From positions 1-31,150 of IMG/VR virus record IMGVR_UViG_3300006919_000249: DNA of 31,150 bases; one strand, given 5' to 3'. The stretch is from a virus. Below the pieces are notes generated by a model. The model did no database searches and was not told the origin of the DNA. It saw only the letters and a list, made by a program, of their open reading frames with translations. Made by a program: the position numbers and the translations under genes. Positions 1 to 27,369 of this stretch are shown one piece after another. The number at the start of each line of letters is the position of its first letter. Within the stretch, counting starts at the first letter, position 1.

Positions 1-334
1 ATGTTACTACAATTGATCCTATAACACCAAAAATTTGTTTAACTCTGTCAAAAAGAGCTGATAATCCCAAAAGGTCTAATATCCCAAACTTACCTAAATT
101 GAAAAGACCACCAGTTTTATCATTGGTCACACCACCAGCAGTCATACTCGGAGCGGAGATTCCTGCACCTTCACGCATAGATTCCAAACGGTCTAATCTG
201 TCCTGCTTATTCAACTCAAGCAGACTTGTCACCCTGTCAGTTAGGGTTTCAATCTCAGTTTTAATGAATTGAGTTTCTAATAACTGTTCTTCATTGACTT
301 CTGTAAGTCTGTCAATAACATCCGTTAAAGCCAT
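1..334 (-). CDS. Probable tail tape-measure protein, N-terminal part (runs off window)
   Basis: The frame is open from the ATG at 334 down to the window edge, giving 111 residues with no stop. Residues 1 to about 55 are charged and heptad-like (repeated I/L/V with E, D, K, R), as in a coiled coil. A Gly/Ser/Thr-rich linker follows, then a hydrophobic stretch (GILDLLGLSALFDRV and following). The start lies one base after the stop of the chaperone-like -1 frame at 337-335. In many contractile and siphovirus tails the gene directly after a frameshifted tail-assembly chaperone is the tape measure, and coiled coil plus hydrophobic segments fit that. T4 uses gp29 for this job, but I see no specific gp29 similarity. 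The call rests on position and composition. Another large hub-associated protein is the alternative. Confidence 0.5.
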   Translation of the reverse strand, partial: MALTDVIDRLTEVNEEQLLETQFIKTEIETLTDRVTSLLELNKQDRLDRLESMREGAGISAPSMTAGGVTNDKTGGLFNLGKFGILDLLGLSALFDRVKQIFGVIGSIVVT

Positions 335-517
335 TTACTGTCTCTGTTTCTGTTTCTCTGCTTCTTCTTTTAACCATTGTATAAGCATAGTAATATAGAC
401 TTCACGTTCCCAAGGCATCATATTTTCAAGTTCTGTCAAAGAATATTTATGGTGCTGCATCAACTGAAAATTTAGTGTATAGTAATTTACTAAATTTTCA
501 TGTGAGAGGCATACTAA
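335..517 (-). CDS. -1 frame extension of the gp26-like gene (candidate 'T' part of a G/GT tail-assembly chaperone)
   Basis: Shifting -1 at the eight-T run that ends the gp26-like gene opens a 60-codon frame from TTA at 517 to TAA at 337-335. The peptide reads like protein, not noise: it contains HKYSLTELENMMPWEREVY followed by an amphipathic helix and a basic, Gln-rich tail. A helical 'L..mpw.e...l' segment of this kind is typical of the T regions of phage tail-assembly chaperones. The fused product would be 298 residues. An independent start is possible at ATG 460 (41 residues), but the bases before it (TTTTCAGTTG) contain no Shine-Dalgarno match, and the frame stays open and protein-like well upstream of that ATG. 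Both observations favour translation by frameshift. Confidence 0.65.
   Translation of the reverse strand, partial: LVCLSHENLVNYYTLNFQLMQHHKYSLTELENMMPWEREVYITMLIQWLKEEAEKQKQRQ
465..500 (-). promoter_or_regulatory. Stem-loop downstream of the slippery run
   Basis: Read on the minus strand, TGAAAATTTAGT (500-489) pairs perfectly with its complement at 476-465. This is a 12-bp, mostly A-T stem with a 12-base loop. It begins 16 bases after the last base of the slippery heptamer. That spacing is longer than the common 5-9 bases, so it may be a modest stimulator of frameshifting or an unrelated fold. It lies within the -1 reading frame. Confidence 0.5.
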
Positions 518-1230
518 AAAAAATCGTTAGTCCCCTTCAGAGTGATCTCGTTTTCATGTTCACAACTTTCACATGTAAACTTCACATCATGTTTCATCTG
601 AGGTAAATCTTCGACAAACTTTCTAACTTCTTCAAACTGCTTATTACTAAACGATTCAAGGAATGCCATTACTTCTTCTTTAGGTTCATCAGCAAAACTA
701 ATCTTTTCTTCTTCTGTCTCTAAACTCTCCAGGCAAATTGCAATCAAATCAAAAATCTGCTGTGTCTGAGATGTATTATTCTTTTCATTATCTAACATAG
801 TATTTGTGACTTCAGATAACACAGGATACTTGAGTGTCAGAGTCATATCATCAGTAAGTTTAATCGGTTTAATTGTTTTAGGAACTGCAACCTTAATCTT
901 ACTCAAGTCAACGCTAACTTGATTCGGTGTACTACACTCTGAACACTTAATATTGATGTTAGAAGATTCGCCTACAGACTTAGAACGAATCTGCGTAAAC
1001 AGATATTCAATATCGAATACAGGAAGATTATAGACATTAATATCTTCATCAATACATGCTGCAATGGTATCAGAGATTGCGTCTAATGCAACCTTTTTAT
1101 CTTCAGACTCCAATGCCATCATTAGAATCTTTTCTTCCTTGACAAGATAAGGTCTGAATTTTACTTGCTTGCCATTAGAAGGAATTTTTGTGGTATATTT
1201 AATCGACTCATTAAGTTTAGGTAAAGCCAT
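514..1230 (-). CDS. 26: gp26-like baseplate/tail-assembly protein (T4_baseplate family), candidate tail-assembly chaperone
   Basis: The protein has 238 residues. T4-like phages carry members of the gp26/gp51 'T4 baseplate' family of about this length in the hub gene cluster. Two CxxC pairs (C96/C99 in KCSECS and C220/C223 in TCESCE) could together bind one zinc ion, as in a zinc ribbon. The middle is acidic and helical. The start is supported by GGAG about 9 bases upstream, placed directly after the stop of the preceding gene. Its 3' end (DFF then TAG) lies in an eight-T run that forms a likely -1 frameshift site, and the likely tape-measure gene follows. This suggests it is the 'G' part of a G/GT chaperone pair for the tape measure rather than a passive hub subunit. 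The family call is from recognition of the sequence style and context; the chaperone role is inferred. Confidence 0.7.
   Translation of the reverse strand: MALPKLNESIKYTTKIPSNGKQVKFRPYLVKEEKILMMALESEDKKVALDAISDTIAACIDEDINVYNLPVFDIEYLFTQIRSKSVGESSNINIKCSECSTPNQVSVDLSKIKVAVPKTIKPIKLTDDMTLTLKYPVLSEVTNTMLDNEKNNTSQTQQIFDLIAICLESLETEEEKISFADEPKEEVMAFLESFSNKQFEEVRKFVEDLPQMKHDVKFTCESCEHENEITLKGTNDFF
517..538 (-). promoter_or_regulatory. Candidate programmed -1 frameshift site with upstream SD-like element
   Basis: On the minus strand the last sense codons of the gp26-like gene are GAT TTT TTT, followed by TAG. This gives the slippery heptamer T TTT TTT (523-517) with a zero-frame stop right after it. 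AAGGGG (537-532) could form six consecutive pairs with the 16S anti-SD, one of them a G-U wobble, and lies 8 bases upstream of the heptamer. This matches the SD-stimulated layout known from E. coli dnaX. The only nearby ATG it might serve (512-510) encodes just four residues before a stop, so a simple ribosome-binding role is unlikely. Confidence 0.65.
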
Positions 1231-1242
1231 TTTATAACTCCA

Positions 1243-1743
1243 TTAAGTAGTGCGTTCCCAATCAGTAAATGCTAACTGTACATTGAGTTGTGTGATTTGA
1301 TTCTGGAGACCATCTCCAAGTTCGATAGGATTAATTGTAACAGGAAATGCTCTGATAAGTTTCACGCCATAGACGACAGATTCTTCTTTTTTATCTAACT
1401 GTTCAATTTCAATATTTTCTGAATATTCATTTTTATATGAAAGTTCATAGGTATCGAAACCGATAATCTTTTCATGCCAGTCTTCAAAATAGTTCTTGAC
1501 AGAATACTCATTATCTAGTAAGAAAGTTAAACTCACATCGTCAAAGATAAATCCATATGGCATTTTTTGTGTAATCATGCCAATACGTCTTTCAGTAGTA
1601 GTGATCTGTCTGCCCGGCAAGTTTGTTGCTTGGCAGAGAATATCACCTTCTCTATTCAGACCCGGAATCTTAATTCGATACCTATCTGGTTGTGCAGGTG
1701 GTTTGCTTGCAAACGCACCTTTTAAATCTTCAATAGTCGCCAT
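1243..1743 (-). CDS. gp19-like tail-tube-fold protein, candidate tube initiator
   Basis: The protein has 166 residues. The run PDRYRIKIPG, then CQATNLPGRQI, IGMITQKMPYG, and FDDVSLTFLLDNEYSVKNYFEDWHE is the typical pattern of the T4 gp19 tail-tube family: an opening beta strand, an 'atnlPGr' loop, and a 'd...ltF..d.....y..f..W' segment. The C-terminus (VQLAFTDWE) is also typical. Full-length T4 gp19 is the tube subunit, normally encoded beside the sheath gene gp18. This copy instead sits among gp4, gp26-like and hub genes. It may therefore be a tube-initiator ring (job of T4 gp54, which also carries a gp19-like fold) rather than the bulk tube protein. The start codon overlaps the upstream stop by one base (TAATG), implying translational coupling. 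Confidence 0.6.
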   Translation of the reverse strand: MATIEDLKGAFASKPPAQPDRYRIKIPGLNREGDILCQATNLPGRQITTTERRIGMITQKMPYGFIFDDVSLTFLLDNEYSVKNYFEDWHEKIIGFDTYELSYKNEYSENIEIEQLDKKEESVVYGVKLIRAFPVTINPIELGDGLQNQITQLNVQLAFTDWERTT

Positions 1744-16136: not shown

Positions 16137-17750
16137 ATGGCAAGCACATTAGATGTATTAGATTCAGATAACGTTCTCAATAGAGGCACAATCGCCAATG
16201 ATAACACTGGCGATACTCTAAGAACTGCTGGTCTCAAAATTAATAGACAATTTGAGGCTGTTGACAGTGCGATGTATAATACATCATGGGTAGTATGGCC
16301 TGAAGGTTCTGGAGAGGATAATTCTACCCTTCGCTACAATGGATCAAAGTTTGTAGGCACAAACAATTTAAAAGTTGACTCTGATGCAAATACTACGATT
16401 GCTGGTACATTGGGTGTTACAGGTGCGACTACTCTTAGCACATTAGGCGTTACAGGCGCTACTACTCTTAGCACATTAGGCGTTACAGGTGCGACTACTC
16501 TTGCCGATAGTCTAGACGTATCTGGCGATCTTACCATCACAGGTGCAACAGCATTGAATGGTGGTCTGACCATGGACACCGACAAGTTCACTGTTGCAGA
16601 CACAACTGGTAATACAGCAATCGCTGGTACATTAGATGTTACTGGCGCTACTGGCATCGATGGCAACTTTGATATTAATACCAATAAATTTACAGTAGCA
16701 AGTGCAAGTGGTAATACTACTGTTGCTGGTACATTAGATGTTACAGGTGCAACAACTTTTAATGCTGATGTTGATTTACAAGATAACGACAAACTCAAAT
16801 TAGGTGATGATGACGATCTACAAATCTATCACGATGGATCGAATAGTTATATCGATGATGGGATCGGCGCTGGAGAATTAATCTTTAAGTCTAATCGTTA
16901 CAGTTTGAGAAATGCTGCAGACACTGAACAAATTATGACTGCAGGAGAAGATAGTTCTGTTGCTCTTTACTATGATAATGTCAAGAGATTAGAAACTACC
17001 TCTACTGGTGTTACTGTTAATGGAGATCTTTCAGTGACCTCTGGTAACATTGGTGGATATGAAAGAATTTTGGCAGCATATGCGAATATTCCCACCACGG
17101 AAACCATTATTGAATATATTGATAACGAAGGCGACTTTGATTTTCAAAGCACTAGCTCCTGGGACGCTGTTCCAGTGAATACTGGAGGATTATCCTGCAC
17201 GACCAGTACATCAGTTAGAAATCTTTTTCAAATTGGAACTGCTAATCATGACGATTTGTATATCGTTAAATTAGCGTTTAGACTGTACAATGATGATGCT
17301 ACTGAGCCAGACGATATCAGAGTTGCTATGAAATTATTTGGTAAATATTTGAGAGCTGATTTGTATTTAGAAGGTGGCAACACCCCCGCTACCACAACTG
17401 AAGAATTTGTTGTTTCTGCAGCTTTCACCGGAGCTGAAATTGTAGCAAACGGCGTGGATACTTTGAACCGTGGATTCGGCGAAAACGGTAATAGTCTCGT
17501 TGGTAACGACCATAAATGGCTCTTTGAAACATCTGGCGGCGAGGCAAGCAGGAGATATGCATTTGAATTTAGCGTTATTAATTTGATAAGCAACTCGGTC
17601 GGAAATGTCCATGCAGGATCAACAACTACTTCTTGGTCTTTGACAGGAGGTAATGCTGCTAACTTTGCTATGGAAGTATATAGAAATGCCAATAATAGAA
17701 TTTCGCAACTCACTGGTCTTCCCACTACTGGAACTTTCGGGAATGTATAG
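16137..17750 (+). CDS. Tail-fibre-like protein with tandem repeats
   Basis: The protein has 537 residues. Residues 15-50 (TIANDNTGDTLRTAGLKINR and following) form a short anchor motif also found in the next gene. Residues 91-123 are three perfect tandem 11-residue repeats (TLGVTGATTLS type), followed by degenerate relatives (TIAGTLDVTGAT and variants) to about 218. A common phage-fibre segment follows: DDDDLQIYHDGSNSYIDDG, then SVALYYDNVKRLETTSTGV. The last 220 residues are a non-repeated, probably beta-sandwich domain (from GGYERILAAYANIPTTETI) that could be the receptor-binding or trimerising head. It is the first gene after a late promoter, so it is made in quantity. Fibre is the likely role; what it binds is unknown. 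Confidence 0.7.
   Translation: MASTLDVLDSDNVLNRGTIANDNTGDTLRTAGLKINRQFEAVDSAMYNTSWVVWPEGSGEDNSTLRYNGSKFVGTNNLKVDSDANTTIAGTLGVTGATTLSTLGVTGATTLSTLGVTGATTLADSLDVSGDLTITGATALNGGLTMDTDKFTVADTTGNTAIAGTLDVTGATGIDGNFDINTNKFTVASASGNTTVAGTLDVTGATTFNADVDLQDNDKLKLGDDDDLQIYHDGSNSYIDDGIGAGELIFKSNRYSLRNAADTEQIMTAGEDSSVALYYDNVKRLETTSTGVTVNGDLSVTSGNIGGYERILAAYANIPTTETIIEYIDNEGDFDFQSTSSWDAVPVNTGGLSCTTSTSVRNLFQIGTANHDDLYIVKLAFRLYNDDATEPDDIRVAMKLFGKYLRADLYLEGGNTPATTTEEFVVSAAFTGAEIVANGVDTLNRGFGENGNSLVGNDHKWLFETSGGEASRRYAFEFSVINLISNSVGNVHAGSTTTSWSLTGGNAANFAMEVYRNANNRISQLTGLPTTGTFGNV
16407..16505 (+). repeat. Three tandem 33-bp repeats in the fibre gene
   Basis: Units at 16407-16439, 16440-16472 and 16473-16505 encode TLGVTGATTLS, TLGVTGATTLS and TLGVTGATTLA. 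The DNA copies differ at only a few third positions, so the expansion is recent or kept uniform by recombination. Being in-frame, copy changes would lengthen or shorten the shaft without breaking the gene. Confidence 0.9.
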
Positions 17751-25926: not shown

Positions 25927-27369
25927 ATGGCCGTCATTCTTATAAAACGTGCGGATAGCGACGGTAAACCAGCTGATGGTAATCTTGCCCGTGGCGAACT
26001 CGCCTATGCATTTGGCACTGGTACTGATACTAATGAAGGCCAGCGATTATTCGTAGGTGTTCCTAACGGTGGCACGAGCAGAACTGCAATCATCGGTGGT
26101 GAATACTTTGCTAATTTCTTAGACCATGCTCCTGGCACTCTTACAGCGTCTTCTGCTATCATTACAGATGCCAGTAGTAAAATTGACCAATTAAAAGTTG
26201 ATCTATTAACCTTAGACAGTGATACTATTTCTACCGAGAGCGGTAATTTAGTACTCTCTTCTAATACTGGTATTGTTGAACTTGGTAATTTAGAGTTTGA
26301 GAATAATGAAATTAGAACAAATTCTAATAGTCAAACTTTAATTCTCAATCCATATCCAACTACTGACTCTGGCACAGTAATTATTAAAGGTGACTTGAGA
26401 GTTGACGGTACAACAACTACTGTAAATTCTACTGAAGTTACTATCAATGATCTAGCTATTATTGTAGGTGATAGTGGTGGTACAGCTCCATTAGAGTTTG
26501 ATGGTGCCGGTATCATTGTCTTTTCTGCTGAATCCAATTCAGTATTCGGAACAACCTCACCTAGCATTACTTACAACGGCACGACAGACCGTTGGGACTT
26601 CAGTAGAGCAATTGATGTAGACTCTGCCTATATTGATAATATAGTTTCTACACAAGTAAGCATTACTAATCTAACTGTTACTGATTCTGCTACCATTGCC
26701 GATGCAACAGTAACTGGCACCGCTACAATCAATAATGCTGATATTACTACGCTAGACGTAAGCGACTCAGCAACAATTGTAGATGCTAATATTACTGGCA
26801 CCGCTACGATTAATCAGGCGACAGTAACTACCCTTGACGTTACTGACTCAGCAACTATCGTTGATGCTAATATCACTGGCACTGCAACTATTGCTGTTCT
26901 AGATGTTACAGATTCTGCTACTATTAACCAAGTCACAGTAACTACTCTTGACGTTACCGATTCAGCAACGATTGTAGATTTAACAGTTTCTAATCAAACC
27001 AATCTTACTAATGCAAGCATCACAGACTTAACTGTTACTGATTCGGCGACAATTAATTTTGCAAGTATCAGTAACATGACGTTTACTGATTCTGCTCTAT
27101 CGCAGTTCTTAGATAGCGACGACTTTGTCTTTAGTGGTGGGCAGGCAAGTCTTAAAGCAGAAGCGGTTGAAGACATTGTCGGTGCGATGGTCTCTGGAAA
27201 TACAGAGACAAATATTTCTGTAACATATCAAGACGCAGATGGAACGATTGACTTTGAAGTTCCTACAGCATCTACTGCGCAGGTCGGTGTTGCGCAGTTT
27301 GACAGCAATGAATTTGATGTTGTTGCAGGATTTGTTACAATAGATACGATAGATGGCGGCTCTTACTGA
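25927..27369 (+). CDS. Repeat-rich tail fibre protein
   Basis: The protein has 480 residues. Residues 1-45 (VILIKRADSDGKPADGNLAR, GELAYAFGTGTDTNEGQRLF) form an anchor domain like that of the next large gene (both have 'I.lrR....g..P....l..GE.a'). Residues 90-230 are a beta-rich segment with TVIIKGDLRVDGTTTTVNST, a frequent fibre-shaft phrase. Residues about 245-390 are imperfect repeats built on TTLDVTDSATIVDANITGTA. A short C-terminal tip follows (QVGVAQFDSNEFDVVAGFVT, IDTIDGGSY). No chaperone or enzymatic domain is visible. It probably forms a trimeric shaft. The gene abuts the preceding one, and its stop is at the edge of a late promoter box. Confidence 0.7.
   Translation: MAVILIKRADSDGKPADGNLARGELAYAFGTGTDTNEGQRLFVGVPNGGTSRTAIIGGEYFANFLDHAPGTLTASSAIITDASSKIDQLKVDLLTLDSDTISTESGNLVLSSNTGIVELGNLEFENNEIRTNSNSQTLILNPYPTTDSGTVIIKGDLRVDGTTTTVNSTEVTINDLAIIVGDSGGTAPLEFDGAGIIVFSAESNSVFGTTSPSITYNGTTDRWDFSRAIDVDSAYIDNIVSTQVSITNLTVTDSATIADATVTGTATINNADITTLDVSDSATIVDANITGTATINQATVTTLDVTDSATIVDANITGTATIAVLDVTDSATINQVTVTTLDVTDSATIVDLTVSNQTNLTNASITDLTVTDSATINFASISNMTFTDSALSQFLDSDDFVFSGGQASLKAEAVEDIVGAMVSGNTETNISVTYQDADGTIDFEVPTASTAQVGVAQFDSNEFDVVAGFVTIDTIDGGSY
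26661..27099 (+). repeat. Degenerate repeats in the fibre shaft
   Basis: About seven imperfect copies of a unit encoding [L/I]-[D/T]-V-T-D-S-A-T-I, interleaved with V-D-A-N-I-T-G-T-A-T-I, fill this stretch. The DNA copies differ widely at third positions, so they are older than the 33-bp repeats in the gene at 16137. Confidence 0.75.

Follow-up and report, generated by a model that had tools for sequence, protein, structure and literature searches.

A programmed -1 frameshift at the 3' end of the gp26-like gene of a marine T4-like phage very probably gives rise to a pair of tail-assembly chaperones of 238 and 298 amino acids, as judged from the nucleotide sequence. The window, which denotes the whole stretch of DNA analysed (31,150 nucleotides), comprises positions 1-31,150 of the IMG/VR record IMGVR_UViG_3300006919_000249 and is a fragment only.

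Architecture of the slip site

The gp26-like gene lies on the minus strand (1230..514), encodes 238 amino acids and ends in GAT TTT TTT TAG, the stop codon TAG occupying 516..514. The eight-T run (523..516, minus strand) contains the slippery heptamer T TTT TTT (523..517, minus strand), on which the tRNA-Phe molecules at the P- and A-sites would re-pair one base back. The SD-like element AAGGGG (537..532, minus strand), a candidate stimulator, is located 8 nt upstream of the heptamer. A perfect inverted repeat of 12 bp with a 12-nt loop (500..489 with 476..465, minus strand) starts 16 nt after the heptamer and is a possible minor stimulator. The -1 frame (517..338, minus strand) is open for 60 codons, begins with LVCLSHENLVNYYTLNF and would form the C-terminal part of the 298-aa long form. 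Its stop codon (337..335, minus strand) directly abuts the ATG of the next gene at position 334. This gene (334..2, minus strand), a probable tape measure gene, is cut by the window end. The earlier note on this DNA had described the GAT TTT TTT TAG end, the eight-T run, the spacing of AAGGGG, the 12-bp stem and the 60-codon frame, and its description was exact to the base. It had also stated that the frame ends one base before the next gene; the two are indeed adjacent, but no base lies between them. An Rfam search of positions 200..1400 gave chance matches only, well below the gathering scores.

In the proposed mechanism, most ribosomes would stop at the TAG codon and release the 238-aa short form (514..1230, minus strand), for which we propose the role of the short tail-assembly chaperone (TAC-N, G-like). 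A minority would shift into the -1 frame on T TTT TTT and translate a further 60 codons. The resultant 298-aa product is proposed to be the long chaperone (TAC-NC, GT-like), the extension of which is usually annotated as a separate 'gp51'. The SD-like AAGGGG would help the slip, and perhaps the downstream stem would as well. As lambda G/GT and T4 gp26/gp51 suggest by analogy, the short and long forms would cover the tape measure protein, the product of the next gene, and would bring in tail tube subunits while the hub and tail are assembled. We infer the occurrence of the frameshifting, its rate and the chaperone function from the sequence.

Conservation of the slip site

The first 80 relatives from IMG/VR all keep the slip site. 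Among them, 79 have T TTT TT(T/C), and the single T TTT TTA variant still fits the X XXY YYZ rule. These first relatives and more distant groups, with near-duplicates removed, make up a set of 97 loci. In 95 of the 97 non-redundant relatives, the 3' end of the gp26-like gene reads NNT TTT TT followed by T (35 loci), C (59 loci) or A (one locus), and the extension lies in the -1 frame; since the relatives are related sequences, these counts do not represent independent trials. Only one of the 53 other Phe-Phe pairs in the same genes forms T|TTT TT(T/C), and TTT accounts for 63% of the other Phe codons. The first six T's are fixed and variation is confined to the last position, as X XXY YYZ re-pairing predicts. 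In the sequences compared, the retention of the slip site and the -1 frame is far above chance.

The heptamer was also found in Nitratidesulfovibrio phage SRB7757, phiM7, Marzo, Atu_ph04, Aeh1, K575, KVP40, phage 65 and pf16, and, by inspection, in RaK2. The alignment with relatives, which the earlier note had put forward as a check, was thus run on a broad set, and both the T run and the -1 frame proved to be kept. Nor was any of the observations made that the note had regarded as contrary to its reading: the T run is not lost, the extension has no start with an SD of its own, and the frame runs up to the next gene. In Mosig (L085) and in the loci L122, L148 and L167, the heptamer is located 24 nt before the gp26 stop codon, and the frames overlap by about 8 codons.

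Identity of the extension and its start codons

In a tblastn search the extension matched 592 public phage records, most of which list it as a protein in its own right, 'gp51' or 'baseplate hub assembly catalyst'; PHROG 634, which bears the latter name, was matched with E 1.5e-28. In the S-CAM3 and Mosig records, the ATG from which gp51 is annotated lies well within the conserved segment. No CDS joining gp26 and gp51 was present in the GenBank records examined. In the part of the -1 frame that precedes the first ATG, pN/pS was 0.29 with zero stop codons (87 sequences), whereas the other two frames of the same codons showed pN/pS of 1.17 and 1.55, with 1.8 to 2 stops in each sequence. The short form and the extension were modelled as two separate parts, and the AlphaFold-type prediction of the extension, folded alone, showed three helices with a pLDDT of 85.

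In 78 of the 95 loci, the extension either has no ATG or has its first one no earlier than codon 15. No SD was found at the first ATG: the mean duplex energy was -1.36 kcal/mol, compared with -1.76 kcal/mol for random sequence and -5.81 kcal/mol at the gp26 start. In the window, the corresponding value was +1.6 kcal/mol, compared with -5.9 kcal/mol at the start of the gp26-like gene, where GGAG precedes the ATG. A separately initiated gp51 of 41 residues is therefore considered very unlikely in the window, its ATG having no SD. Since selection acts before the first ATG and this ATG lacks an SD, the conserved residues appear to be translated without a start of their own.

Alternative explanations

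There is another possible interpretation of the extension, namely that gp51 is a separate small protein with its own start codon, reached by reinitiation or through an internal ribosome-binding site. It is annotated in this way in GenBank records, and TAATG or TGATG overlaps the gp26 stop codon in some relatives. However, the first ATG, where it is not absent, mostly lies at least 15 codons into a conserved region under purifying selection and has no SD; codons without a start are under protein selection; and the heptamer is retained even in the relatives with an overlapping ATG. We therefore regard a separate gp51 as very unlikely in general. A separately started product is possible where an ATG overlaps the gp26 stop codon. 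Five loci (L087, L088, L089, L092 and L107) have both the heptamer and such an ATG (TGATG or TAATG), and both fused and separate gp51 could be made from them.

Transcriptional slippage, in which RNA polymerase slips on the T run to give mRNAs with differing numbers of U's, would suit the window, where the eight T's are of a length that favours slippage. In 59 of the 95 relatives, however, only TTTTTTC is present, and one has TTTTTTA. The phase and the wobble position fit X XXY YYZ, and slippage by the polymerase would have no need of an SD-like element at a constant distance. We consider this explanation very improbable. Homopolymers are error-prone, and a sequencing or assembly error in the T run might have split one in-frame gene. 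Many assemblies and isolates, representing 95 non-redundant lineages, nevertheless show the same phase, mostly as T6C; this explanation is refuted by conservation and its probability is negligible. Equally negligible is the probability that the extension is a decayed remnant and that gp26 alone is functional. While gp26 alone does comprise a full PF12322 domain, the extension is under strong purifying selection, and T4 and its kin retain this segment, in frame, in their long copy. A programmed -1 frameshift, giving products of 238 and 298 residues with a chaperone role as the earlier note had proposed, is the best-supported reading, with the T run kept in nearly all loci and the ATG devoid of an SD.

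Stimulatory elements

The 9-nt windows ending about 6-7 nt before the heptamer showed a mean energy of -5.6 kcal/mol against the anti-SD (96 loci), compared with -0.48 kcal/mol for the gene-wide control. Since a Gly codon is conserved at the SD-like site, these windows were compared with other Gly-anchored windows; the values were -5.8 and -4.5 kcal/mol, respectively (p 7e-11, the sequences being related). The SD-like element is found at fixed spacing family-wide.

For the 12-bp stem, 82.5% of cells were paired in the closest clade, with one compensated pair, and conservation across the family was not found. Downstream structure was mildly enriched family-wide (median z of -1.08, compared with -0.16 to -0.61 in control regions). 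The stem was set aside as the main stimulator due to its lack of conservation across relatives. Because the stem is only partly kept in the close clade and the family-wide enrichment is slight, the SD-like element is the stronger candidate for the stimulator. The earlier note had invoked a combined drive by an SD-like element and a stem as in E. coli dnaX; the former extends to the whole family, whereas the latter is mostly local to the closest clade. The marine phage resembles dnaX in that an SD-like element precedes the slip site and a stem may follow it. It differs in the heptamer and the gene, and in that its stem is weak and lineage-specific.

Chaperone family and the neighbouring gene

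The 238-aa gp26-like protein belongs to PF12322, T4_baseplate (Pfam, E 2.8e-60; 204 bits compared with a cut-off of 24.5), and matches PHROG 150 (E 3e-62). The AlphaFold model of the short form has a pLDDT of 89.6. A Foldseek fold search with this model gave no significant match. Among the matches listed, 2ob9, the tail assembly chaperone of HK97, ranked first in probability (0.47) and had the smallest rmsd; its TM by target was 0.50, but with an E of 2.2 it was not significant. A sequence search of the PDB gave no match.

The next gene has an intact relative of 500 aa in L010, and the corresponding gene in L015 encodes 775 aa; both show weak matches to tape-measure PHROGs (best E 7e-4 and 4e-6, respectively). 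Position and these weak profile matches point to the next gene (334..2) as the probable tape measure gene. In T4, the gp51 gene is upstream of genes 27, 28 and the tape measure gene 29.

In lambda (G/GT), a short and a -1 extended protein are encoded just before the tape measure gene, and the same holds for HK97 gp13/gp14. As in the lambda G/GT type, the marine gene has a canonical X XXY YYZ heptamer near its 3' end with a -1 extension. Sequence homology with the lambda and HK97 proteins was not detected, however, and the marine heptamer is poly-T with an SD-like element before it. The chaperone locus of Vandenendeviridae and Andersonviridae (PMC12846349, phage Adele) is alike in its conserved -1 frame and the invariant GTTTTT at the 3' end of TAC-N; the phage families and the motif are different.

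The two-gene arrangement of T4

T4 gp26 and gp51, which are listed as hub assembly chaperones (PMC3004832), are both PF12322 proteins. T4 thus resembles the marine phage in having PF12322 in a short and a long protein, and gp51 carries the same C-terminal segment; the two differ in that T4 has two genes whereas the marine phage has one gene with a -1 slip. A profile built from the marine extensions alone matched residues 207-244 of T4 gp51 (21 bits), and it gave no match to T4 gp26. T4, RB49, Acj9, 44RR and RB43 each have two PF12322 copies, of which one is short and the other contains the extension in frame; a T6 run was found in neither copy in any of the five phages. Every complete heptamer-bearing genome searched has one PF12322 copy. 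The 31-kb window, a fragment, likewise contains one, and the two-gene arrangement of T4 was not found in it. In the genomes searched, the heptamer and the two-gene arrangement are mutually exclusive.

In the protein tree, which is unrooted and in which the short copy of RB43 forms a long branch, one well-supported branch (98/94) sets the duplicate copies apart from the proteins of the frameshift type and those without a heptamer. Aeh1, KVP40 and 65 are Straboviridae like T4, yet they are of the frameshift type. Since these phages keep the frameshift type, the sequences and the unrooted tree suggest that the frameshift is ancestral and that a single later switch to two genes occurred.

Groups without the canonical heptamer

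Ackermannviridae and Vibrio phage D528, each with one PF12322 copy, keep a homologous -1 extension, but ATT TTC or CTT TTC replaces TTT TTC. The site is GAR ATT TTC ATY TAA in Ackermannviridae (L093, L202-L219) and CTT TTC AAG TAATGG in D528 (L091). The Ackermannviridae site reads GARATTTTCATYTAAT. In these groups the gp26 stop codon overlaps an ATG (TAATG) or an ATT (TAATT, AUU), suggesting reinitiation or a non-canonical slip. A scan of viral contigs with the D528 protein found no relatives.

We tentatively consider, as a rather doubtful generalization, that the T4-type chaperone is expressed in at least three modes: an SD-stimulated poly-T -1 slip, duplicate genes and a heptamer-less extension. 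The poly-T frameshift would, by parsimony, be ancestral within Straboviridae. The duplicates would have arisen by a single switch in the lineage of T4, RB49, Acj9, 44RR and RB43. The third mode, so far undescribed, would be that of Ackermannviridae and the Vibrio phage group.

Relation to published work

According to passages of PMC10885494 and PMC12846349, Vladimirov, Gautam and Davidson (2022) identified T4 gp26/gp51 as tail assembly chaperones. A passage of PMC10885494 further states that, in place of frameshifting, some T4-like phages have a short gene along with a fused long one, and one of PMC12846349, citing Vladimirov et al. 2022, that the TAC-N genes of T4-like phages are known to contain poly-T -1 signals. 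The earlier note did not know of the mechanism as established for T4-like phages. This statement has to be corrected, because the chaperone identity was published in 2022 and the poly-T signals are credited to that work in the passage of PMC12846349. Because these passages attribute both to Vladimirov et al., the present finding is most likely a new lineage of an already described phenomenon. Vladimirov et al. 2022 may or may not already cover the SD-like element and the breadth of the copy-number split.

If the proposed reading is true, one expression logic would apply to lambda-like and T4-like tail chaperones, and the need of T4 for both gp26 and gp51 would be explained. It would also correct the annotation of hundreds of marine phage genomes, in which the long form is now split into 'gp26' and a truncated 'gp51'. 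These phages form a natural set for comparing frameshifting with gene duplication in setting the short-to-long ratio.

Other observations

The gp26-like protein (514-1230, minus strand) contains two zinc-ribbon-like CxxC pairs, C96/C99 and a C-terminal CxxC. The first pair is nearly invariant in relatives, and T4 gp26 and gp51 have similar cysteines. Elsewhere in the window, the tail-fibre-like genes at 16334-16798 and 26600-27176 contain tandem short-motif repeats of the types LGVTGATTLST and TVTTLDVTDSATI.
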